Positions 2,688 to 27,907 of a stretch of 64,000 bases of DNA are shown here, one piece after another. How positions within the stretch are numbered: the first letter of the stretch is position 1; every line of letters begins with the position of its first letter. Location: the NCBI GenBank assembly GCA_020444065.1, contig JAHLLQ010000009.1, forward strand, positions 62,001 through 126,000, read 5' to 3'. The stretch is from a bacterium (GTDB taxonomy: Bacteria; Sumerlaeota; Sumerlaeia; SLMS01; JAHLLQ01). The notes beneath the pieces are model-generated. The model ran no database searches. It saw nothing but the letters and a program-made list of their open reading frames with translations, and was not told the origin of the DNA. A program made the translations under genes and the position numbers.

Positions 2688-4121
2688 TCAGTAGCGATAG
2701 TGATCGGGCTTGTAGGGACCTTCGACGGGAACGCCGATGTAGTCCGCCTGCTTCTTGCTCATCTCGGTCAACTGGGCGTTGAGCTTCTTGAGGTGAAGAC
2801 GCGCGACCTTCTCGTCCAGCAACTTCGGCAGCACGTAGACCTTGTTCTCGTACTTGCCGTTGTCGCGGTTCTCCCACAGATCGACCTGTGCGATCGTCTG
2901 GTTGGTGAAGCTGGCGCTCATGACGAAGCTGGGATGGCCCGTGGCGCAGCCGAGGTTCACGAGACGGCCCTTGGCGAGCAGGATGATGCGCTTGCCGTCC
3001 GGCCAGATCACGTGATCGACCTGCGGCTTGATCTCGACCCACTCGAGGGGATCGAGCGCGTCGACCTGGATCTCGCTGTCGAAGTGACCGATGTTGCAGA
3101 CGATGGCCTGGTCCTTCATCTGGTCCATGTGCTCGCGTGTGATGACGTCGACGTTGCCGGTGCAGGTCACGAAGATGTCGCCCCACTTGCAGGCCTCGTC
3201 CATCTCGACGATGGGGAAGCCTTCCATGGCGGCTTGCAGCGCGGTGATCGGGTCGATCTCGGTCACGCTGACCTGGGCGCCGAGGCCGGCGAAGGCCTGG
3301 GCGCAGCCCTTGCCGACGTCGCCGTAGCCGAGCACGACGCAGCGCTTGCCGGCGATCATGACGTCGGTGGCGCGCTTAATGCCGTCCATCAGCGACTCGC
3401 GGCAGCCGTACAGGTTGTCGAACTTCGACTTCGTCACGGAGTCGTTCACGTTGATGGCGGGGAAGAGCAGCGTGCCCTTCTTCATCATGTCGTACAGGCG
3501 ATGCACGCCGGTGGTGGTTTCTTCGCTGACGCCGCGAACAGTGGCGGCGACCTTGTGCCAGAGCTGCGGGTCCTCATCGAGGGTGTCGTTCAGCAGCGTG
3601 TCGACAACGGCGACTTCTTTGTTGCTGCGATCGATCTCGGGCTTCTTGCCGGTCTTCGCGAACTCGTCTTCGCGCTCGCAGCCGCGGTGGATCAGCATCG
3701 TGGCATCGCCACCGTCGTCCACGATCAGGTCGGGGCCGCGATCCGGGCCGTGTAGCAGCATCTGCTTCGTGCACCACCAGTATTCTTCGAGGCTCTCGCC
3801 CTTCCAGGCGTAGACGGGAACGCCGGCCTTCGCGATGGCGGCGGCGGCGTGATCCTGGGTCGAGTAGATGTTGCAGGAGGCCCAGCGCACGTCGGCGCCG
3901 AGGGCAACGAGCGTCTCGATCAACACGGCGGTCTGCACGGTCATGTGCAGGGAACCGCTGACCTTTGCGCCGGCCAGCGGCTTGCGCGGGCCATACTCCT
4001 CGCGCATCGCCATCAGCCCGGGCATTTCCGTCTCGGCGATTTCGATTTCCTTGCGGCCGAAGTCGGCCTGGCCGATGTCGGCGACCTTGTAAGGAACGGT
4101 CTGGTTTTCGACAGTAGACAT
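2688..4121 (-). CDS. ahcY: S-adenosylhomocysteinase
   Basis: Hydrolyses S-adenosylhomocysteine to adenosine and homocysteine with bound NAD+, removing the product inhibitor of methyltransferases in the methionine cycle. The 477-residue length is typical. Visible signatures are [31 protein letters not shown], the NAD-binding [23 protein letters not shown] and the C-terminal PDHYRY; the C-terminal Lys-Tyr motif of the family appears here as KPDHYRY. An AAGGAG site lies 7-8 nt before the ATG. It follows the ArsR-methyltransferase gene by 47 bp in the same direction, so the two are likely co-transcribed and feedback-controlled by SAH (inference). No SAH riboswitch fits in the 47-bp gap. Confidence 0.97.
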
Positions 4122-4168
4122 GTCTTCTTACTCCTTGGGGTTAATGGGAAGTCGAGGATTGTCGGTTC

Positions 4169-5140
4169 TTATTCATCTGGCTTTCGTGCCAGCAGCGCGA
4201 AGCCGTCCGGCACTTGGACCTTCTTGTTGTCCGGCGTCGTCCACGGCTTTCCGGGCAGCGCAACCCAGCCGTCGATTTCGAGGCCGCATTCATTCATCCA
4301 GCTGTCCAGTTGCTCACGAGAGAACCCGAGCCACCGATGCTGCATGTGATCGCGCAGCCAGGTTTCCTGGTGTTGCATGAAGTCGGCCAGGTACAGCAGC
4401 CCGCCGGGGGCAAGCGCCTTGGCCGCGCTGCGCACTGCGCGTCCCGGCTCGTCGAGGTGCTGCAACACCATCACGAGCGTCGCGATGTTCACCTCGCCCG
4501 GCTTCAGCGGCGGTTCGTGCGCGTCGCCCTGGCGAAATTCCACGTTGTCCAGGCCCCACGCTTCGACCTTGCGCCGCGCGACCGAGAACATCGCTTCGCT
4601 GTTGTCGATCGCGATGATCTTGCGCGGCCGGTCGGCGAAGAGCTCGATCACGTGCCCGGTGCCGGACCCGATGTCCGCCACGGTCAAGTCGCGTGGGACA
4701 AAAGCGCGCAGCAGAGCCCGGCCGATCGAGTCGCCGAACAGCGCCGAGCGGATCTCGTCCCACTCGTCCGCAATCCGTTCGAAGAAGCGACCGTTGCGCT
4801 TCTCGCGGCGGGCGATCACGCCCTCCATGCGAGCCAGATCCGCCAGGAACAGCTCGTCGCCATCCCAAGCCGCGCGGATGCTCTGCCACAGCGGCGCCAC
4901 GGCTTCAGGCAGCCGGTCGACATCGATCCGGTAATGCCGCCAGGGGCCCTCGCGGCGTTCCTGGACGATGCCTTCTTCACGCAGGACCTTCAGGTGGTTC
5001 GAGACGCGAGACTGGGCGAGCTGTGTGGCTTCGGAGAGCTCCATGACCGACAATTCCCCCGCGTCCAGCAGCCGCGTCAGGCGCAGCCGGGTCGGGTCGC
5101 TGAGGGTTTTGAAGAGTCTTGTGACGTCTTTGACGGCCAT
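4169..5140 (-). CDS. ArsR-family regulator fused to a SAM methyltransferase domain (SahR-like)
   Basis: A 323-residue two-domain protein. Residues 1-100 are an ArsR winged helix (LSDPTRLRLTRLL, then AQSRVSNHLKVLREEG, then the wing). The metal-binding ELCVCDL helix of classical ArsR/SmtB is replaced by GELSVMEL with no cysteine, so it is unlikely to sense metals. Residues 130-320 are a Rossmann methyltransferase fold (VADIGSGTGHVIEL, IAIDNSEAM, LVMVLQHLDEPGR). This matches SahR, known in Proteobacteria as an SAH-responsive regulator of methionine-cycle genes, and here it lies directly upstream of ahcY. It could instead be an active methyltransferase with an HTH domain. Confidence 0.82.
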   Translation of the reverse strand: MAVKDVTRLFKTLSDPTRLRLTRLLDAGELSVMELSEATQLAQSRVSNHLKVLREEGIVQERREGPWRHYRIDVDRLPEAVAPLWQSIRAAWDGDELFLADLARMEGVIARREKRNGRFFERIADEWDEIRSALFGDSIGRALLRAFVPRDLTVADIGSGTGHVIELFADRPRKIIAIDNSEAMFSVARRKVEAWGLDNVEFRQGDAHEPPLKPGEVNIATLVMVLQHLDEPGRAVRSAAKALAPGGLLYLADFMQHQETWLRDHMQHRWLGFSREQLDSWMNECGLEIDGWVALPGKPWTTPDNKKVQVPDGFALLARKPDE

Positions 5141-5183
5141 GGCCTGGAAACCTCATGCGCATTCTCGCTGAGCGCATTTCCAG

Positions 5184-5195
5184 ATATCATGATAT
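5184..5195. promoter_or_regulatory. Perfect 12-bp palindrome, candidate operator
   Basis: ATATCATGATAT is a perfect palindrome 43 bp upstream of the ArsR-methyltransferase start and the only such AT-rich palindrome in this intergenic region. Its place and symmetry fit an autoregulatory operator for a dimeric winged-helix repressor. Binding is inferred. Confidence 0.6.
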
Positions 5196-5235
5196 GATGA
5201 TGCGCGGTCAAGGGGAAAATGCAGAGCCCTGCCCT

Positions 5236-5261
5236 CCCGGGCCCATTCGGCCCGGGATTTT
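5236..5261. terminator. GC-rich hairpin between gh13 and the regulator gene
   Basis: CCCGGGCC - CATTC loop - GGCCCGGG, followed on the plus strand by ATTTT. It lies 27 bp past the stop of the minus-strand amylase. The T-run is on the plus strand, so its use as a minus-strand terminator is uncertain. Confidence 0.45.
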
Positions 5262-5282
5262 CGCTCTCGGTGGCAGAGGGGG

Positions 5283-6878
5283 CTACTGAACGCGCTTGTA
5301 GGGTGTGTACTCCAGCGTCTCAGCGACATGCGGGCGGAAGACGTGGGCCGTGCGCGCGGGGACTTTGACGCGCATTGTGCCGGACATGACCTGCGCTTCG
5401 GCTTTGCTCAACTCGTCCCTCAGTTTGTCCCAGTTCATCAGTTTGCTGTCCCGCAGCGGGATGACTTCCGTGATCGGTTCGACGGTCGGGTTGACGACGA
5501 CGATGGTGGTTTCTTCTACACGGTCCGTGACACGCATGAAGGCAAGTAGTTGTTCGGTCTCCAGCAGTCGGAAGTCGCCGACGCGGAGCGCGCGATTGCT
5601 GTTTCGCATCTCGATCAGGCGACGCATCCATTGCAGGTCTTTGTTCGAATCCTTGACCAGGTCCCAACGCATGGGCGCCCGGTTGGCGGGGTCCTCGCCG
5701 CCTTCCATACCGAGTTCGACGCCGTAGTACACGCACGGCGAGCCGGGCAGCGTGAACTGCAGCACCTGGGCCATGCGCCGCTGCCACTGGTTCTTCATCA
5801 GATTCTTCAGGCGCGGCGTGTCGTGGTTGTCCAGAATGATCCAGGATTTCAGAATCGGATCCAATCCGGTATCGCGGACCATCGTATCGAAGCATCGGCC
5901 GGCATGTTCGCCGCTGATATCGCCGTTCACCATGTAGAGGATCAATTGGCGGGCGTGGAAGTTCATCACCGAGTCGAGTGCCGGCGACCATTCCTCCGGG
6001 TAGTTCCAGATCTCGCCGGTGACGAGCGAGCCGGGCTTCGCGGTGTGCGCGGCGTTCGTAATGCCAGCCAGGATGTCGAAGCCGATGTCGAACGCCACGT
6101 CGAGGCGCCATCCGTCGGCGCCGTCGCGCAGATAGCCCTGGATCGCGGAATCCGGATCGCCGAACAGGCGCTTCTGCACGGTCGGATTCTCCAGGTTCAA
6201 CTCGGGCAGATTGTCGACGTTCGCCCAGGCGCGGTAGCCGCGCTGGTACTGATCGCCGATGTAGAACCACTCGCGCCAGGGGCTTTCGGGGTCGGCCATC
6301 GCTTCCTGGAAGATCGGCGACGTGCGGCCCATGTGGTTGAAGACGCCATCCAGCACGAGGCGCATGTGGCGTTCGTGTACGGAGTCGGCCAGCGCGGACA
6401 AGTCTTCGCGATCGCCGTACTCCGGCGAGATCGTGAAGTAATCCTGCGCGTCGTACTTGTGGTTTGTGTAGGCCTTGTGGATCGGATTCAGGTAGAGCAC
6501 ATCGACCCCGAGATTGTCGATATAGTCAAGGTGCGCCCGGACGCTGTCCAGATCGCCGCCCCAAAAGTCGATCTCGTGACTCCAAACGTTGACTTCTTCC
6601 AGGTACGTGCCTTTGGTGGGAACCTCGCCCCAGTCTCGGAGCGTCTTCGGAGCGGGGTAGAGGTCTTTCTTCGCCTCGAGATCTTCCGGGGGTGCGAAGC
6701 GATCGACGATGACCTGATAGACGATCGCGCCATTGCGCCAGTCGGCCTCGCGCTCGGCGAGGACCTCGGCTTTGTCGCGGTCGTAGGAATTGGCGTAGGA
6801 ATACGTCATGGTGGGTTGCTCAGCCTGAAGTGAAGTCGCCGCCAGGGCGGCCAGGAGCGCAAGGGAAGCAAGTTTCAT
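5283..6878 (-). CDS. Secreted alpha-amylase family enzyme (GH13)
   Basis: A 531-residue exported glycoside hydrolase acting on alpha-1,4-glucans or maltodextrins. The signal peptide is residues 1-19 (MKLASLALLAALAATSLQA). All four GH13 regions are present: DGVFNH near residue 178, GWRLD with nucleophile Asp260, TGEIW with acid/base Glu289, and LDNHDTPR with Asp353. A small beta-sandwich C-terminal domain follows. The architecture is closest to cyclomaltodextrinase/neopullulanase-type enzymes, but specificity cannot be read off. The chosen ATG has a GGAGG site 7 nt upstream and starts the signal peptide; the longer in-frame extension does not. A monocistronic unit is likely. Confidence 0.93.
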   Translation of the reverse strand: MKLASLALLAALAATSLQAEQPTMTYSYANSYDRDKAEVLAEREADWRNGAIVYQVIVDRFAPPEDLEAKKDLYPAPKTLRDWGEVPTKGTYLEEVNVWSHEIDFWGGDLDSVRAHLDYIDNLGVDVLYLNPIHKAYTNHKYDAQDYFTISPEYGDREDLSALADSVHERHMRLVLDGVFNHMGRTSPIFQEAMADPESPWREWFYIGDQYQRGYRAWANVDNLPELNLENPTVQKRLFGDPDSAIQGYLRDGADGWRLDVAFDIGFDILAGITNAAHTAKPGSLVTGEIWNYPEEWSPALDSVMNFHARQLILYMVNGDISGEHAGRCFDTMVRDTGLDPILKSWIILDNHDTPRLKNLMKNQWQRRMAQVLQFTLPGSPCVYYGVELGMEGGEDPANRAPMRWDLVKDSNKDLQWMRRLIEMRNSNRALRVGDFRLLETEQLLAFMRVTDRVEETTIVVVNPTVEPITEVIPLRDSKLMNWDKLRDELSKAEAQVMSGTMRVKVPARTAHVFRPHVAETLEYTPYKRVQ

Positions 6879-19291: not shown

Positions 19292-20494
19292 CTACGCGTC
19301 GCTCCAGTCCAGTGGCTTCTTTGCGAAGAAGCATTCCAGGCCGTGGCGGAAGGTCTCTTCCTGCGAGTACGACGCGAAGAGTTCGACGACGTTCGCCATG
19401 TCGGCGAGAATGCCGGGAATCTCCGGCGCGTTAACGAGTTGCTTGGAACGCCGCATCGCGCCGTCACTGTTTGTGCGCACCATCTCGTCGGCATAGGCAC
19501 GTGCATCGTCGATGACGTGGCGCGGATCATCGCCGGCGCCGAGATGATGCACCCAGCCGCGCGCGTAGGCTTCGGGGGCTTTGACGCGGCGTCCGCTCAG
19601 CATCAGTTCGCGGGCCGCGGACGCGTGCAGGCGCCGCATCGCAATTGTCGAAACGAGGCCGGGGACAAAGCCGATTTTCACTTCAGGAAAACCGAACAGC
19701 GCGCTCTCGTGCGCCCAGATGCAATCGGAGACGATGGTCAGCGCGGTGCCGCCGCCGAGCGCCGGTCCGTGAATCGCGGAAACGAGCGGTTGCGGCAGTT
19801 GCAGCATGTCGCCGAAGCACGCCGCAAGTTCCTTGGCCAGCAGTTTGACGCTCGCGAACGTGAAGTCGTCGTGTAGTTCGCGCAGATCGAGCCCGGCGCA
19901 GAATCCGGCACCTTCGCCGCTGAGGAGCACGACCTTCGCGGCGGGATCGTTGGCCGCGCGGCGGATCTCGTCGCGCAGATGACGGACCATGTCGAGCGTC
20001 AGTGCGTTGCGGCGCTCCGGGCGATTCAGGCGAATGTGAAAGACGCGGCCGTCGCGCTCGGCCAGCACTTCGTCGCTGCGACCGGGCGCACCGTTCTTGT
20101 CGACCTCGACGAACTGGAAGCACTCCGGTGGCAACTCCGGCCCCCAGTGCAGGCGAGCTTGCTCGTACATCTCGGCGGGCACGCGAACCGGCATGCGCAG
20201 CAAGGCGTGGGAGTACGTCTTTCCCTGCGCGTCGATCTGAAGCGAAACGGACCCGCCACCGCCGAGTGCGCCGTGCACGAGGAAGTTCAGTGCGTCGAGG
20301 TTCGGCATTTCGAAACGCTCGACCGGGCCGGTGGCCATCGAGCCAAGAAACGCTGCGACGCGTTCGGCGGTGAGCTCGCGCGCCAGGAAGTCGTACCACT
20401 CTGGGCGGCGGGCGATCACGCCAACGTTGACTGCGTCCCCTTTATCGCCGGAACGGCCGTGAGCAAGCATGTAGAGAGCAACGGTGACGCTCAT
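19292..20494 (-). CDS. Fusion: AtuA C-terminal domain + enoyl-CoA hydratase
   Basis: A 400-residue protein with two parts. Residues 1-110 match the C-terminal domain of AtuA proteins (AHGRSGDKGDAVNVGVIA, RPEWYDFL, MPNLDALNFLVHGALGGG). Residues 135-395 are a crotonase fold (HIRLNRPERRNALTLDM, GAGFCAGLDL, HGPALGGGTALTI, FPEVKIGFVPG). One of the two hydratase glutamates (E in GGGxE) is replaced by Ala, while the second (FPEV) is kept, as in isomerase or methylglutaconyl-CoA-type hydratases. The AtuA N-terminal part is the adjacent upstream gene, overlapping by 4 bp. AAGGAG lies 8 nt before the ATG. This joining of AtuA-C to a hydratase is unusual. Confidence 0.88.
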   Translation of the reverse strand: MSVTVALYMLAHGRSGDKGDAVNVGVIARRPEWYDFLARELTAERVAAFLGSMATGPVERFEMPNLDALNFLVHGALGGGGSVSLQIDAQGKTYSHALLRMPVRVPAEMYEQARLHWGPELPPECFQFVEVDKNGAPGRSDEVLAERDGRVFHIRLNRPERRNALTLDMVRHLRDEIRRAANDPAAKVVLLSGEGAGFCAGLDLRELHDDFTFASVKLLAKELAACFGDMLQLPQPLVSAIHGPALGGGTALTIVSDCIWAHESALFGFPEVKIGFVPGLVSTIAMRRLHASAARELMLSGRRVKAPEAYARGWVHHLGAGDDPRHVIDDARAYADEMVRTNSDGAMRRSKQLVNAPEIPGILADMANVVELFASYSQEETFRHGLECFFAKKPLDWSDA

Positions 20495-21867
20495 CGGGCG
20501 GTCTCCTTTGCATCGTCAAGCGTGAGGATATCGAGCTTTGGTTCGGCTGCGGACTTATCGACCAGCCCGGGCCAGTACGCAAGCACGTCTGTTGGACGAG
20601 GGCGGCCCCCGGCGAAACCCGTTGCGCCAGGAGGGCCGGTCAGGACGAGCGGCACAATGTCCTGGCCGAAGCGCGCGAGTTGCTCTTTGTCGTGTCCGCG
20701 CACCGCGATACGCAGTTGCACTTCGTTGACTTGCGTTTCGTCCACGGCCGCGCGCGAAATTGCGCCATGGCATCCATCGTAGCCGACGGTTTCGGTGCTC
20801 ACGGCATCGAATGAGATACCCAGCTTCTCTGCGCGCTTCAGGACGAGTTCGCCCGCGCGGCGCGCTTTGCCGACGGCGTCCGGCCACGAATAGACCATCG
20901 TCCCGGACAGCATATATCCGTCGGCGTAGGAACACGAGACCTTATAGGAATCGGTGGTGGGATTGCCCCTCACGCCGGTGATGCGCACTCGATTCGGCGC
21001 TTCCTGCTCGACGCGAATCGAAGAGAAGTCCACGACAACATCCGGCGTGATGTAATCCTTCGGGTCGCCGATTTCGTACAACAACTGTTCCTTCACGGTG
21101 CCGGTGGAAACTTCGCCGCCGAGGGAATCGTGCTTCGTGATCACGAGACCGTCGCGCCCGTCAAACTCCGCGATTGGGAAGCCGAGCTCAACCAGCTCCT
21201 CCGTCCCCAGTTTTCGACCAAGGAAGTTGCCGCCGCTCGACTGGGCGCCGCATTCCAGGATGTGTCCGGCGACGATCCCGAGCGCAAGAGCGTCCCAATC
21301 GTCCCACGCGACACCGTAGCGATGCACCAGCGGCGCCAGAGTCAGGCCGGTATCGGTGACGCGACCGGTCACGATGATCTGACAGCCTGCTTCGAGCGCC
21401 TGAACCATCGGACGCGCGCCGAAGTACACGTTGGCACTCAGGAGCGAGTCCTTGATCGCCGCCAGTTCCGGTGCGTGCGGATCAAGGCCCTTAAGTGGCA
21501 GATCGTCCAGGCGATCGAGAATGTCGTCGCCGTGCACGACACCGATCTTGATTTTGCTCTTCGAGTCGTGGGCCTTGATTCGTTCGAGCAGCGCCTGCGC
21601 ACAACCAATCGGATTCGCGCCGCCGGCGTTGCTGATCACCGTGATGTTGTTCTCGATCAAATCCGGTAGCAGTTCGTCGATCACGCCGACAAAATCGCGC
21701 GCATAGCCCATCGCCGGATCCCGGCGGCGCTGCTTTTGCATGATGCTCATGGTGACTTCGGCCAGGTAATCGAAAACCAGGTAATCGATCTGGCCGGAAC
21801 GAACTTGAAGCAACGGTGCTTTTGGCCAGTCGCCCCAGTAGCCTTGTGCGGATGCAACGCGGATCAT
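20491..21867 (-). CDS. AtuA-like N-terminal protein (DUF1446)
   Basis: A 458-residue protein of the AtuA family (acyclic terpene utilisation; formerly DUF1446), lacking the short C-terminal domain, which is carried by the next gene. Family segments: AQGYWGD, DYLAEVTMSIMQKQRRRDP, VISNAGGANPIGCA, ARPMVQALEAGCQIIVTGRVTD, GIVAGHILECGAQSSGGNF and GYDGCHGAI. In Pseudomonas atuA belongs to the citronellol/geraniol pathway, but its exact reaction is unclear. Here it lies in a cluster with an acyl-CoA dehydrogenase and a B12-dependent mutase, which suggests branched-chain acyl-CoA work. Confidence 0.9.
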   Translation of the reverse strand: MIRVASAQGYWGDWPKAPLLQVRSGQIDYLVFDYLAEVTMSIMQKQRRRDPAMGYARDFVGVIDELLPDLIENNITVISNAGGANPIGCAQALLERIKAHDSKSKIKIGVVHGDDILDRLDDLPLKGLDPHAPELAAIKDSLLSANVYFGARPMVQALEAGCQIIVTGRVTDTGLTLAPLVHRYGVAWDDWDALALGIVAGHILECGAQSSGGNFLGRKLGTEELVELGFPIAEFDGRDGLVITKHDSLGGEVSTGTVKEQLLYEIGDPKDYITPDVVVDFSSIRVEQEAPNRVRITGVRGNPTTDSYKVSCSYADGYMLSGTMVYSWPDAVGKARRAGELVLKRAEKLGISFDAVSTETVGYDGCHGAISRAAVDETQVNEVQLRIAVRGHDKEQLARFGQDIVPLVLTGPPGATGFAGGRPRPTDVLAYWPGLVDKSAAEPKLDILTLDDAKETAR

Positions 21868-21984: not shown

Positions 21985-23829
21985 CTAAATCATCGGCCGG
22001 AATCTTCCCCAGCAGTCTTGCAGTGCTTCGACCATTTGGCCGTTTGTTGCGTGTTCGGCGGCGTCGAGGAGTGTTTCAAAGACATTCACTTCGCTTTCGC
22101 CGCAAAGGGCTGTTTCGCGCAGGCGAGCGAGCGCTTCCTTGGCGCCGGCTTCGTGGCGGTGCTTGAAGTCGCGTACGCGTTCCGCCTGCATTTCGCGCTT
22201 CTCGCGTGGCGTGCGTGAGAGATTGACTTCCGGCCGAGCCGTCTTGTCGTCGCGATAGCAATTCACGCCCACGATGCGGCGCGTTCCTTCGCCGACCTGC
22301 TCGTGCATGCGGTAGAAGCTATCCTGAATGCGCGCGCGCGTGTAGCGTTGCTCGACCGCCGCCAGGACTCCGCCAAGATGATCGATCTCGTCCCAGATGT
22401 CGAGCACGGCGGCTTCAACGCGATCGGTCAGCACCTCCATGCCTGGGCTGTTGCTGAACACGCCCATCATATGGCGAAACAGGCCGGATTCCTCGAGCAG
22501 AATTGCCTGCGTGTCACTTGCGATCTGAGCGGCTTCGGCGGTCGGCGTTGTGATTGCTTCATCGTACGAGTTCGAATGTGCCGAGTTCGTGTGGTTGATC
22601 AAGCCCAGGAACAACTGCACCGCGGTGCGCGTGATGTTGTTCAGGTAGCGCTGTTCGATCAGGCTGCGGCCGCTCGTCTGCGTGTGGAACTTCAGCTTCG
22701 CCTTCGCCGGATCGACGCCGAAGTGATCGCGTAATGCAATCGACCACAAGCGCCGCGCAACGCGGCCCGTGACGGCCGATTCCAGGTCGTGATCGAACTG
22801 GAAGAAGAACGACAAGCGCGGGACCACGGCGTTCAGATCCATGCCGCGCCTCCGGAACTCGTGCGCGTAGAAGAGGCCATTCCCGACGGTGAACGCGAGT
22901 TGCTCGATCGGGTTCGCGCCGGCTTCGGCGATGTGATAGCCGCTGATCGAAATCGGATACCAGCGCGGCATCACGCGCGTTGTGTAGTCCACCATGTCGC
23001 CGAGCAGACGAAGACTGGGCTCCAGCGGGAACAGAGTCTCGTTCTGCGCCTGGATTTCCTTCAGGATGTCTGCCTGGACGGTACCCCGCAGTGCGGCCGC
23101 CGTTTCGCGCCGCATGCGCAGGTACTCCTCGCGATCCGGCTCGCGACCATTCTCTGCACGGAACTTTTCGGCCTGCTGGTGCGTGGCGGCGACGATGAAC
23201 TGCGCCATCAACATTGGTCCCGGACCGTTGATCGTCATGGAGACACTGACGTTGCGCGCTGTCAGATCGAAGCCTGCAAACAGGCGCTGCATATCGTCGA
23301 TCGTCGAGACGGCCACGCCGCCTTCGCCGACTTTGCCGAGCAGGCCTTCTCCATCCGAATCCATCCCGTACAGAGTCGGCCCATCGAAGGCGGTGGAGAG
23401 GCGAATCGTGCGCTGGTTCTGCGCGAGGAAGTGAAAGCGCTCGTTCGTATCTTCCGCCAGGCCGAGGCCGGCAAACATTCGCGTGGGCTCCTCGTGCTCT
23501 TCGCCTTCCTTGATCAGGTACATCCGCGGATAGGCGGAGTGCGTGTATGGAAACTCGCCGGGCAGGCCTTCCCTCAAAAGATAGCGAGTCACCGCGCCGG
23601 GTTCGTCGTAATTCGGAAGCGCGACTTCCGGGACGTTGAGGCCGTTCAGCGTGTGCGTTTCTGGAATTGCGCCGAGCGCTTTGCGCCAGCGCTCCATCGC
23701 CGCAGCACCGGCGGATTCGTCCGTGCGAGCGCGTTGGACTTCGCCAGGAACGCGATCATGGTAAGCGCGCACCGCGGCGGCGCTGGCGGCGAGAACGCCT
23801 GCAGATTGAGCCGGCATTGTGGCGGTCAT
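21985..23829 (-). CDS. Acyl-CoA mutase large subunit, isobutyryl-CoA mutase (IcmF-like) type
   Basis: A 614-residue TIM-barrel subunit of a B12-dependent acyl-CoA mutase. It lacks the B12-binding domain, which is in a separate gene. Its closest pattern match is the mutase part of fused isobutyryl-CoA mutase IcmF: RLSTAFDGPTLYG, GKVGEGGVAVSTIDDM, SVSMTINGPGPM, GTVQADILKE, ISGYHIAEAGANP, HTQTSGRSL, YDEAITTPT. At the two specificity positions it has Phe119 (TRMFAG) and Gln262 (QAQNE). These are the isobutyryl-CoA mutase residues; methylmalonyl-CoA mutase has Tyr and Arg. GGAG lies 7 nt before the ATG. Expected reaction: isobutyryl-CoA to n-butyryl-CoA, or a close analogue. Confidence 0.88.
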   Translation of the reverse strand: MTATMPAQSAGVLAASAAAVRAYHDRVPGEVQRARTDESAGAAAMERWRKALGAIPETHTLNGLNVPEVALPNYDEPGAVTRYLLREGLPGEFPYTHSAYPRMYLIKEGEEHEEPTRMFAGLGLAEDTNERFHFLAQNQRTIRLSTAFDGPTLYGMDSDGEGLLGKVGEGGVAVSTIDDMQRLFAGFDLTARNVSVSMTINGPGPMLMAQFIVAATHQQAEKFRAENGREPDREEYLRMRRETAAALRGTVQADILKEIQAQNETLFPLEPSLRLLGDMVDYTTRVMPRWYPISISGYHIAEAGANPIEQLAFTVGNGLFYAHEFRRRGMDLNAVVPRLSFFFQFDHDLESAVTGRVARRLWSIALRDHFGVDPAKAKLKFHTQTSGRSLIEQRYLNNITRTAVQLFLGLINHTNSAHSNSYDEAITTPTAEAAQIASDTQAILLEESGLFRHMMGVFSNSPGMEVLTDRVEAAVLDIWDEIDHLGGVLAAVEQRYTRARIQDSFYRMHEQVGEGTRRIVGVNCYRDDKTARPEVNLSRTPREKREMQAERVRDFKHRHEAGAKEALARLRETALCGESEVNVFETLLDAAEHATNGQMVEALQDCWGRFRPMI

Positions 23830-23869
23830 GAGGTGACTCCGATCTTCCTTCGTTCGGTTGTTTCCGGGC

Positions 23870-24112
23870 CGGAGTGTTGTTGTGCCCCATCAGGGCACGG
23901 TTTCCTTTTCAGCCCGATCCCCAGCCCGATGGGCTGGGCTAAGGAATGGTGCGCCTTCAGCGCATTCCCATTTCGACGTCTCACCGTCTCCCTTTATGGC
24001 ATTCGGGCCGCCATTCAGACAAGGCCCAACGGGTCGGCAAGTCCTTAGCCCAGGCCGCAGGCCTGGGAAAGCCCGGCGCCAATCAGGGCGGCCTGAAGGG
24101 CCGCGATAGAAA
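23870..24112. repeat. Palindrome-rich spacer inside the mutase cluster
   Basis: 288 bp between the mutase and the B12/G-protein gene hold no gene. They contain several small hairpins: GTGCCCCATCAGGGCAC, CAGCCCGATGGGCTGGGCT, GAATGGTGCG...GCGCATTCC, CCCAGGCCGCAGGCCTGGG and GGCGGCCTGAAGGGCCGC. The style is that of the elements at 2354-2640 and 40634-40845. Confidence 0.6.
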
Positions 24113-24117
24113 CGTCG

Positions 24118-25260
24118 TCACCTCCCGATTCGTTCCTCCAGCAATTCGTGCAACTTGTCCACGCCTTCGTCGCGATGCCGGACGGCCGTGACGCCGAGGA
24201 GCTCGAACGGGCGACCTTCCGCGCGCAGGCGGGCGCGAATTGTCTTCAGTGCAGCGGCGGATGCCGGTTGATCGCACTTGTTCAGCACAACAATGTCCGC
24301 CTGCTCCAGCATGACGGTTTTTTCCAACTGCAGCGCCGAGCCGAATTCGCTCGTCATCACGTACACGTTCAGATCAACGAGGCCATCGAACGGATTGTCC
24401 GCCTGGCCGATGCCGGCGCTTTCCAGAACGATCACATCGAACGGCGCCGCAGACAGGACCTTCACCGCGCGGCCGAGAGCGCCGCTCACGCCGCCGGGAT
24501 TATTGCGTGTGGCGAGGCTGCGGATGTAGACGCCGCCTTTGTCCGCGGCCAGCATGCGAATGCGATCGCCAAGGAGCGCTCCGCCGCCATTTCGTGACGT
24601 TGTTGGATCGCAGCAGACAACGGCGACGCGGTGTTTGCCGGCGGCGCTGAAACGCAGCAGCAACTCGTCGATCAAGGTGCTTTTGCCCGCGCCTCCGTTT
24701 CCAGAAACGCCGATCACGAAGGGGCGTTTCGTCGCCCCTTCGAAATCCTGTGCAGTGTCTTCGACGATGGAGAGTGCACGGGCGATGGCGTTGGGTTTTC
24801 CGGCCGCCAGATCATCTACCAAGGCATCAAGCTGTCGATCGTCGGCGCGATTGGCGGCGCAGATGGCGCGGACCTGCTTTGCGATATCCCACAACGCCAT
24901 GCCGGGCGCGAAGACTTCGGCGATGCCCATTTCTTTGAGTTGTTCCGTGTCGCGGCCGGTGATGGTTCCGCCGCCCCCGGCAACTACCGGGATCGACACA
25001 CCGGCCGCGCGCAGATCGTTCAAAACGTCTTCCAGAAACTCCATGTGCCCGCCGTTGTAAGAGCTGATACCGATCGCGTCGACATCCTCCTCGATCGCGG
25101 CGCGAACGATTTGTGCGGGGCTCTTATTAAAGCCAAGATAGATGACTTCGAGTCCTTCGTGCCGCAGCGCACGACTGACGCCGACGATCGCGGCGTCGTG
25201 GCCATCGCAAAGCGCGACGGCGGTTAGTACGCGGAACGGGGCACTGGGAGTTTCAGGCAT
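24118..25260 (-). CDS. B12-binding domain fused to MeaB-like G-protein chaperone (N-terminal half of IcmF)
   Basis: A 380-residue protein. Residues 10-140 are a cobalamin-binding Rossmann domain: the DxH motif in CDGHDAAIVG (the His is the lower axial ligand), ISSYNGGHMEF and VAGGGGTI. Residues 180-378 are a SIMIBI-class GTPase: P-loop GNGGAGKST, GGGALLGDRIRM, IRSLATRNNPGG, ESAGIGQADNP and NKCD for guanine. This is the domain order of the first half of IcmF; the mutase half is the next gene. The G-domain should gate cofactor loading and repair. It is 6 bp from the CoA-binding gene upstream. Confidence 0.9.
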   Translation of the reverse strand: MPETPSAPFRVLTAVALCDGHDAAIVGVSRALRHEGLEVIYLGFNKSPAQIVRAAIEEDVDAIGISSYNGGHMEFLEDVLNDLRAAGVSIPVVAGGGGTITGRDTEQLKEMGIAEVFAPGMALWDIAKQVRAICAANRADDRQLDALVDDLAAGKPNAIARALSIVEDTAQDFEGATKRPFVIGVSGNGGAGKSTLIDELLLRFSAAGKHRVAVVCCDPTTSRNGGGALLGDRIRMLAADKGGVYIRSLATRNNPGGVSGALGRAVKVLSAAPFDVIVLESAGIGQADNPFDGLVDLNVYVMTSEFGSALQLEKTVMLEQADIVVLNKCDQPASAAALKTIRARLRAEGRPFELLGVTAVRHRDEGVDKLHELLEERIGR

Positions 25261-25266
25261 GGCGGG

Positions 25267-25683
25267 CTACTCCATCAATCGGCGGTGTTCGATTTTTAGG
25301 CAACGATCCATGACGACCTTCATTCCGGCCGCCTGTGCGATTTCGGCGGCTTCATCGTTCGCGATCGTCAACTGCAACCAGAAGACCTTGGCGCCGACGT
25401 CGGCGGCTTCTTTGGCGACTTCCGGTGTGTGTTCGCTACGGCGATAGACATTCACCATATCGATCGGCCCGGGTACTTCGGCCAGTGTCTTGTAGACCTC
25501 CTGGCCGAGCCACTCTCCGCCGCGAGGGTGCACCGGTAATATCTCGTAGCCGGCATCTTTCATTTCTTCCGAAACCTGATAGCTTGCGCGGTGTGGCTTC
25601 GGCGACAGACCAACCACGGCGATGCGCTTCGTGGTCTTCAGTATCTCGCGGACTTCTTCATCGGTTGGTTCGGTGTATGGCAT
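25267..25683 (-). CDS. CoA-binding domain protein (YccU type)
   Basis: A 138-residue Rossmann-fold protein of the CoA_binding_2 family: RIAVVGLSPKPHRASYQV, ILPVHPRGGEWLGQ, DMVNVYRRSEHTPEV and VFWLQLTIANDEAAEIAQAAG. Members bind CoA or acyl-CoA without a catalytic domain. AGGAGGAG lies directly upstream of the ATG at 25683; the longer frame has no such site. Its place between the acyl-CoA dehydrogenase and the B12/G-protein gene suggests a role in handling acyl-CoA in this pathway. Confidence 0.9.
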   Translation of the reverse strand: MPYTEPTDEEVREILKTTKRIAVVGLSPKPHRASYQVSEEMKDAGYEILPVHPRGGEWLGQEVYKTLAEVPGPIDMVNVYRRSEHTPEVAKEAADVGAKVFWLQLTIANDEAAEIAQAAGMKVVMDRCLKIEHRRLME

Positions 25684-25781
25684 GATCTCCTCCTGGATCG
25701 TTTGGACGGAATTTCGAGGAATTCCGTCGACCGCTCTCACCTAACCTGTCCGGCGAAGCTTGTCAAAGCGAAGGCGGATCG

Positions 25782-27551
25782 TCATTCCTCCGGCGCTGGC
25801 GCAAGCTCCGGCCACTCGCCTTCCAATTCGATAAGTGCGGCAGCCAGTGCGCGCTCGTGCTCGACGCGATTGATGGAGAGTACAAACAGCCGGCCGGCCG
25901 AGGCGATTTGCTCGGCAGCGGCTTCGGGCTCCATCACGGCGGCGAAGAGCGATTCGCTCTGGTTGCGCGTTTCGCGACCGGCATTGGCGACGGCCAGCAT
26001 CGCGGCGTGGTGGGCGAAGTCCTTCCAGCGCTGGTCGACGTCGTCGCGGGCGGCCATCTTCGCCGAGCGCATCGCGGCGCTGTCGGCCACGTATATCTGA
26101 ATCGCCATCTCGGCCAGCGCCGCCAGCAGTTCCTGCTCGTCGCGCAGCTTCTTCGGGTCGCCGAGCTTCGCCAGCACGGCTTCGACGGCGCGGGCGAAGA
26201 CCTGGCGCAGTTCCTCGACGACGGCCGCCAGGCGATCGCCGCTCTCGACCTTACGGGCGCGGATCTGGTCGACGACCGATTCCTTTACGCTTCGCCGCAT
26301 GATGCTGTTCACGACCACCATGCGGTTGATCTCGTTGGTTCCCTCATACAGGCGGGACACGCGAACATCGCGATAGTTCCGCGCCACGGGGTACTCCTCG
26401 CAGAAGCCGTAGCCGCCGAGCATCTGGACGGCGTGATCGGCGACTCGGGTGGCGCCTTCGGTCAGGAAGATCTTCGCGATGGCGCACTCGACGTTGAATT
26501 CTTCGCTGGCGTGGCGCTTGGCGGCTTGCTTGCCCTCGGCCGGCGCCAGGATCTCGACCGTGTCTTCGATCAGGCGCGACGTGCGGTAGGCGATCGCCTC
26601 TCCGGCGAAGATCAGCGCGGCGCAGTCGGCGATCTTCTGGCGGATCATCCCGAAGCTGACCAGCGGTTGGCCGAACTGCTTTCGTTCCATGCCGTAGCGG
26701 ATTGCCTCGCGGAGGGCCCGCTTGTTCGCGCCGAGCATCGTAGCGCCCAGCTTCAGCCGGCCCAGATTCAGCATATTGAGAGCGATCTTGTGCCCGCGGC
26801 CGATGTCGCCCAGGCGGGCGCTGTCGGGGACTCGGACGTTTTCGAGCTTCAGTCCGCACGTTGAGGAGCCCTTGATGCCCATCTTGTCTTCTTCATCAAG
26901 GACGCTGAAGCCCTCCGCTTCGCGTGGAACCAGGAAGGCCGTCAGCTTGTTGCCGTCGACCTGGGCAAAGACCGTGTAGAGACCGGCCCAGGCGGCGTTG
27001 GTGATGAACTGCTTCGTGCCGTTCAGGATCCAATGGTCCCCATCGCGGACGGCGGTCGTCTTAGCGGACAGGGCGTCGGAGCCGCTTGAAGGCTCGGTCA
27101 GCGCGTAGGCGCCGATGACCGAGGCGTCGGCCAGCCCGGGCAGGTGCGCGGCGCGCTGCTCCTCCGTGCCGTACGTCATCGTGGGCTGCATGCCGATGCC
27201 CTGCTGGACCATGGCGGCGACCCCAAAGGACCCGGCACGGCCGAGTTCCTCGATCATGGCGATGGCCGAGAAGATCCCAAGCCCCAGTCCGCCGAATTCC
27301 TCCTCGACTTCGGCCATGAAGAGGCCGATTTCGCCAAACTGGCGAAGGAGGTCCGGCGCGTGTGCGTCACGATCCTCGTCCAGCTCGTGCAGGCGAGGGA
27401 CGACTTCGCCTTCCAGAAAGGCACGGACGGCTTCCTGGAGTTCCCTCTGTTCACTGGACTTATCTTCGGGAAATCCCGCGTCCTGGGGGGAGATGACGTG
27501 GGTCAGGAAGCTGATGCCGGGCTGTTGTGTCTTCTTATCCATCACGGACAT
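25782..27551 (-). CDS. Acyl-CoA dehydrogenase with C-terminal extension
   Basis: An FAD-dependent acyl-CoA dehydrogenase of 589 residues, longer than the usual ~380 and closer to the VLCAD/ACAD9 layout. Core motifs: YALTEPSSGSDALS (FAD/substrate loop), WILNGTKQFITNA, MLGGYGFCEEYPVARNYRD and the catalytic-base region RLYEGTNEINR. Residues 430-589 form an extra helical domain. It begins the minus-strand acyl-CoA cluster. The first ATG is only 1 nt from AGGAG, so the ATG at 27551 is preferred. Confidence 0.92.
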   Translation of the reverse strand: MSVMDKKTQQPGISFLTHVISPQDAGFPEDKSSEQRELQEAVRAFLEGEVVPRLHELDEDRDAHAPDLLRQFGEIGLFMAEVEEEFGGLGLGIFSAIAMIEELGRAGSFGVAAMVQQGIGMQPTMTYGTEEQRAAHLPGLADASVIGAYALTEPSSGSDALSAKTTAVRDGDHWILNGTKQFITNAAWAGLYTVFAQVDGNKLTAFLVPREAEGFSVLDEEDKMGIKGSSTCGLKLENVRVPDSARLGDIGRGHKIALNMLNLGRLKLGATMLGANKRALREAIRYGMERKQFGQPLVSFGMIRQKIADCAALIFAGEAIAYRTSRLIEDTVEILAPAEGKQAAKRHASEEFNVECAIAKIFLTEGATRVADHAVQMLGGYGFCEEYPVARNYRDVRVSRLYEGTNEINRMVVVNSIMRRSVKESVVDQIRARKVESGDRLAAVVEELRQVFARAVEAVLAKLGDPKKLRDEQELLAALAEMAIQIYVADSAAMRSAKMAARDDVDQRWKDFAHHAAMLAVANAGRETRNQSESLFAAVMEPEAAAEQIASAGRLFVLSINRVEHERALAAALIELEGEWPELAPAPEE

Positions 27552-27907
27552 GGCGACCATACTCCTGGGGTGGGGTCACGGTAGTGTCATAAGCGAATAA
27601 GAGGAAGACGCAAGACCCGGTCCCATCGTGGATCGGTCCAAAACCGGGATTCTGGGCACATTTTCGAGCCGAGAGGTGCCGAAATCGTGGCGGAAATGCC
27701 GGTGGGGGAGCGCGGCCGAATCGCCACCCACGATAAGGTCGAGAGGCCCGGCTCTTTTTCCCTTGGTCCCCGGGTGTCATAGGTGCCAAAGTGCCCGCCC
27801 CCAGCACTTTTTCGTTGCGATTCCGGGACGAAGAGGGCTTGGGAAGAGAATTGCCCCGCGGCTTGGTTAGCCGCAGGGAGACTTTTGCCCCCGGAGAGGA
27901 ACGCTTA
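27552..27907. other. Intergenic region between divergent operons
   Basis: 356 bp between the acyl-CoA dehydrogenase (minus) and the Yej-like transporter operon (plus). It must hold promoters for both. A G+C-rich block at 27690-27790 includes a CCCGGGTGTCATAGG segment, but I see no clear operator or terminator. Confidence 0.4.

Follow-up and report, generated by a model that had tools for sequence, protein, structure and literature searches.

IcmF, the fused isobutyryl-CoA mutase, carries a B12-binding domain, a MeaB-like G protein and an acyl-CoA mutase barrel on one chain, with a linker connecting the G domain to the mutase (PMC9974510). In structures of MeaB and IcmF, a dimer of the G protein acts as a wedge that opens the mutase so that cofactor can be transferred; for fused IcmF, making this dimer requires oligomerization (PMC10481361, PMC9974510). 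What benefit, if any, the fusion of chaperone and mutase brings is an open question in this literature (PMC9974510). A classical isobutyryl-CoA mutase, with large and small subunits and a separate MeaB, is encoded in a gene cluster of the syntrophic strain TGB-C1 (PMC5017805). Here we describe a pair of genes in a 64,000-nucleotide stretch of a Sumerlaeota genome (the window) that is a rare natural variant of the known enzyme IcmF, split into two chains. The variant is new; no description of a split IcmF was found in the literature searched, which was mainly open-access.

The first of the two genes (P0002; positions 24118–25260, minus strand) has an intact frame with its own start and encodes 380 amino acids corresponding to the N-terminal part of IcmF. 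Pfam places a B12-binding domain (PF02310) at residues 10–120, followed by a MeaB GTPase domain (PF03308) at 177–375, so that the B12-binding plus MeaB-like GTPase content in IcmF order, as read by the first-pass annotation from the sequence, was borne out. The NCBIfam IcmF model (NF045497, 1076 positions) matches the protein over profile positions 3–395. The top PDB match is C. metallidurans IcmF (4xc6, residues 43–432, E 1e-65), which scores 225 bits over the whole B12–G region versus 109 bits for the best free MeaB in the PDB; identity to the same region of characterized IcmFs is 37–40%. A P-loop (GNGGAGKST) and an NKCD motif were found, and in the PDB alignment Gln311 and Lys314 of switch III align with IcmF Gln341 and Lys344, substitution of which impairs GTPase activity (PMC10481361).

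The second gene (P0001; 21985–23829, minus strand), likewise intact with its own start, encodes a 614-amino acid mutase barrel (MM_CoA_mutase, PF01642, E 1e-119) corresponding to the C-terminal part of IcmF. It matches the IcmF model at positions 523–1073, and the two proteins jointly span the profile save for about 125 linker positions. Open reading frames, Pfam domains and profile coverage thus agree on the proposed division of IcmF into two genes at these coordinates on this strand. Neither half reaches the equivalog cut-off of the model (at least 1500 bits), the halves scoring 566 and 299 bits; because that cut-off was chosen with the full-length fusion in mind, split pairs would probably go unnoticed in automatic annotation. 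C. metallidurans IcmF is again the top PDB match, at 456 bits, followed by 2-hydroxyisobutyryl-CoA mutase (HCM, 296 bits) and human methylmalonyl-CoA mutase (MCM, 279 bits), and identity to characterized IcmF mutase domains is about 45%. The protein carries Phe119, Gln262 and Tyr298–His299. Phe119 and Gln262, singled out in the first-pass annotation, align with positions 618 and 762 of the 4xc6 chain, which correspond to native IcmF Phe598 and Gln742 after a 20-residue tag, and are the conserved Phe/Gln of the IcmF class; in the alignment with PDB anchors, MCM has Tyr/Arg and HCM Ile/Gln at these positions. AlphaFold models of the two chains, with pLDDT values of 45 and 39, were too poor to judge fold or interface.

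Class membership was examined by phylogeny of each domain. In the mutase tree, the window protein and its counterpart from G010 (below), a genome belonging to the same order, fall inside the IcmF superclade (SH-aLRT 100/bootstrap 100) on a stem of 1.9 changes per column, a placement that was unchanged when C. metallidurans IcmF, HcmA and human MCM were added as PDB anchors. The G domain falls among the IcmFs and is separated from 17 free MeaBs (SH-aLRT 100), and the B12 domain groups with IcmF, away from free B12 subunits and the C termini of MCMs (SH-aLRT 100). The mutase thus does not belong with MCM or HCM, nor does the B12–G gene lie outside IcmF, and the assignment of both halves to the IcmF class is supported by the sequences of all three domains. 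Within the superclade, the split mutase lies outside the main and type-2 clades of fused IcmFs, which are held together at 100/98, and it is also outside the group of standalone Phe/Gln mutases. The standalone mutase nearest to the superclade (97/86) is that of G045 (L007, contig C307), where MeaB, a Phe/Gln mutase and a B12 subunit are encoded by three separate genes in a row. The trees also contain a second clade, with good support, made up of fused IcmF-like proteins (L129–L133, e.g. G513:C62:84696–86384, G494, G516, G556 and G745) of about 1050 amino acids, with a short linker and Phe/Gln; several of these genomes have an ordinary IcmF as well.

A fused gene interrupted by an assembly or sequencing error could give a similar picture, the genomes being drafts and real frame breaks occurring in the draft IcmFs of G445, G506 and G842. 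In the window, two intact frames with their own starts are kept apart by 288 bp that contain stops and a copy of a genomic repeat, and the split recurs independently in G010, which carries both halves intact (mutase 67% and B12–G 53% identical to those of the window). A sequencing slip is ruled out by this second species, which already contradicts the artefact explanation and leaves it a negligible probability. The G010 halves lie on two different contigs, each gene clear of the contig ends. The mutase (L034, 510–2324) is followed after 28 bp by an AtuA gene (L034, 2352–3725; 63% identical to the AtuA gene of the window), and the B12–G gene (L035, 3031–4239) begins 27 bp after the end of an acyl-CoA dehydrogenase gene (48% identical). 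Each half has therefore retained its own neighbor while the halves themselves are unlinked, and co-transcription of the two genes is not general.

To gauge how rare the split is, the mutase was used as query against about 935 distinct genomes, counting matches with E at most 1e-106 as IcmF class; sampling was uneven, one part of the collection being dominated by relatives of one genome. An IcmF-class mutase was found in about 201 genomes, and it was split only in the window genome and G010, in keeping with the rare arrangement suspected at first reading. Sixteen short frames considered as further splits (G445, G488, G402, G656, G649, G506, G646, G635, G783, G791, G798, G827, G842, G857, G864 and G880) proved on inspection to be due to contig ends or frame breaks; three more (G413, G884 and G901) were judged by coordinates alone, and two of these touch contig ends. 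The genes at L134 (G445:C4:36000–41000) and L139 (G506:C214) are mid-contig IcmF genes in overlapping frames, reflecting either frameshift mutation or sequencing error. G021 was also rejected as a split, being a fused IcmF gene cut by contig ends. The end of its locus L037 (3274) and the start of L043 overlap in the same G-domain stretch and are not identical, as if they came from two strains or two copies. G022 likewise does not qualify as a second split IcmF. Its locus L038 (G022:C326:45000–51295) holds a B12 plus MeaB-type fusion (3793–4938, a frame of 382 amino acids) that lies directly before, and overlaps, an MCM-type mutase gene (4847–6295) truncated where the contig stops. Its G domain clusters with free MeaB, while the mutase has Tyr/Arg, marking an independent fusion.

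The order of the genes in the window, B12–G then mutase, is the domain order of IcmF. The spacer between them (23830–24117, minus strand) is exactly 288 bp long and folds better than shuffled sequences (z −3.2), so its length and richness in hairpins stand as first described. Its bases 11–98 and 155–206 recur, as partial matches of 78–87% identity, at 19 further sites in the genome in three arrays, and the hairpins are thus a property of a dispersed palindromic repeat and irrelevant to IcmF. With this identification a regulatory role for the spacer was dropped. No sigma-70-like promoter was found within the 288 bp, terminator-like sites occur on the opposite strand with none on the coding strand, and the spacer has no match in Rfam. 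The repeat arrays (L157, C9:168500–170600; L158, C6:277800–280300, with tandem periods of 297 and 376 bp; L159, C2:445400–446800) adjoin genes resembling formylglycine-generating/SUMF-type proteins.

Six co-directional genes on the minus strand, with small gaps of which the spacer is the largest, make up the neighborhood. Upstream of the B12–G gene by 6 bp lies a gene for a CoA-binding domain protein (25267–25740, PF13380), preceded by a FadE-like acyl-CoA dehydrogenase (25782–27560) whose homologue is the G010 dehydrogenase described above. Downstream of the mutase are an AtuA-family gene (20491–21867, PF07287), the linkage of which is kept in G010, and, overlapping it by 4 bp, a fusion of an AtuA ferredoxin-like domain with an enoyl-CoA hydratase (19292–20494, PF23544 and PF00378). 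The genome also has an adenosyltransferase gene, a complete MCM of its own on C2 and a match at C3:511628–512356 consistent with a free MeaB. With its own MCM and a putative free MeaB, the genome needs neither half of the split pair for MCM.

How the two-gene form arose was addressed with a rooted concatenated tree, in which the split pair forms a weak clade (85/36) with G021, a fused, fast-evolving IcmF on a very long branch from the same class as the window genome. The ordinary fused IcmFs are the sister group of this clade (99/97). This topology slightly favors fission, as far as sequences can tell: the ancestor of the whole superclade would have been a fused IcmF, and the gene would have broken in this order, at a point after the G domain and before the first linker helix. 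We rate this history a little better than even. The G021 locus L043 runs in one frame from the end of the G domain into the mutase, and the window genes remain in IcmF order. Further in its favor, residues 14–44 of the mutase chain (23698–23790, minus strand) form a helix-like stretch resembling the first helix of the IcmF linker, which a linker HMM matches at 11.1 bits (best of 400 shuffles, 4.6 bits). The G010 mutase scores 7.5 bits, and the N termini of 15 standalone mutases all score below 11.1 bits, one at 7.7 bits matching a different part of the linker. These low scores hint faintly that the break may sit between the G domain and the linker. Loss of the MeaB C-terminal dimerization region was set aside as proof of fission, the independent G022 fusion being equally short.

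Against fission, a single clade of all fused forms costs 2.9 log units and is not rejected (AU p 0.22 in the concatenated tree, 0.37 in the mutase tree), the branch of G021 is very long, and a linker score of 11 bits is small. Placing G021 outermost costs 0.15 log units (AU p 0.49, concatenated), and p values span 0.22–0.53 across the orders of split pair, G021 and ordinary IcmFs. The alternative history starts with a fusion of the B12 domain to the G protein, to which the mutase was joined at a later step, the split lineage being a surviving intermediate. It fits the exclusion of the pair from the ordinary fused IcmFs, both main and type 2 (98–100 support), and the three separate genes of the nearest standalone mutase, from which a stage with a B12–G chain and a mutase would be a natural intermediate; if G021 belongs with the remaining fused forms, no more than one fusion need be assumed. 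It requires the slightly less likely topology, and the known split genomes are two only, both of one order; we consider this history less likely than fission. Were it true, this order would preserve the missing step from a three-gene isobutyryl-CoA mutase to one-gene IcmF.

Taken as an IcmF-class enzyme, the two genes would together encode one AdoCbl-dependent acyl-CoA mutase as two chains that most likely associate into an IcmF-like complex, a reading to which we assign a probability of roughly 0.8. By analogy with fused IcmF and MeaB, from which complex formation, delivery mechanism and substrate are carried over, the B12–G chain and the mutase chain would assemble. With the B12 domain tethered to it, the G domain would rely on GTP and on its switch III residues to keep the B12 domain clear of the barrel during loading or removal of cofactor by the adenosyltransferase. 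A B12–G chain free of the mutase could also form G-protein dimers without bringing two mutases together. The adenosyltransferase and complete MCM of the genome make a dedicated role for the split pair plausible. Judging from the active-site residues, the substrate is probably isobutyryl- or n-butyryl-CoA or a near homologue, although it may differ because the lineage is far from characterized IcmF in both halves. Another branched acyl-CoA, such as isovaleryl- or pivalyl-CoA or an intermediate of the AtuA pathway, is conceivable, if on balance doubtful: isovaleryl- and pivalyl-CoA are also converted by IcmF (PMC10481361), the AtuA and AtuA/enoyl-CoA hydratase genes adjoin the pair (AtuA lying beside the mutase in G010 too), the lineage is deeply divergent, and the substrate-side loop of the mutase (AYPRMYLIKEG) differs from that of C. 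metallidurans IcmF, whereas Phe/Gln at the two discriminating positions is that of the isobutyryl-CoA class.

The split pair offers a natural B12–G chain free of the mutase, on which the benefit of fusion could be tested directly, without engineering, by comparing oligomeric state, cofactor loading and repair with those of fused IcmF. Within the IcmF superclade, the split lineage is also one of the deepest-branching and so bears on the origin or loss of the fusion.

Compared with known systems, the pair is closest to fused IcmF (C. metallidurans, 4xc6; NF045497), with which it shares the content and order of B12 domain, G protein and mutase, the active-site Phe/Gln and switch III, and with which it is monophyletic in all three domains. 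Fused IcmF is a single chain, whereas the pair is two genes with the roughly 125 linker positions lacking profile coverage, on a deep separate branch with about 45% mutase identity. Classical isobutyryl-CoA mutase resembles the pair in having Phe/Gln and a mutase chain apart from the B12 chain, but its B12 subunit and MeaB are separate where the pair has one B12–G chain, and the split mutase lies outside that clade. MCM with free MeaB has the same reaction type and domains; its B12 domain, however, is C-terminal on the mutase chain and its active site has Tyr/Arg, neither of which is found in the pair. The 2-hydroxyisobutyryl-CoA mutase HcmA/HcmB (4r3u) also has a separate large chain, but with Ile in place of Phe, a small separate B12 subunit and a position in a different clade.
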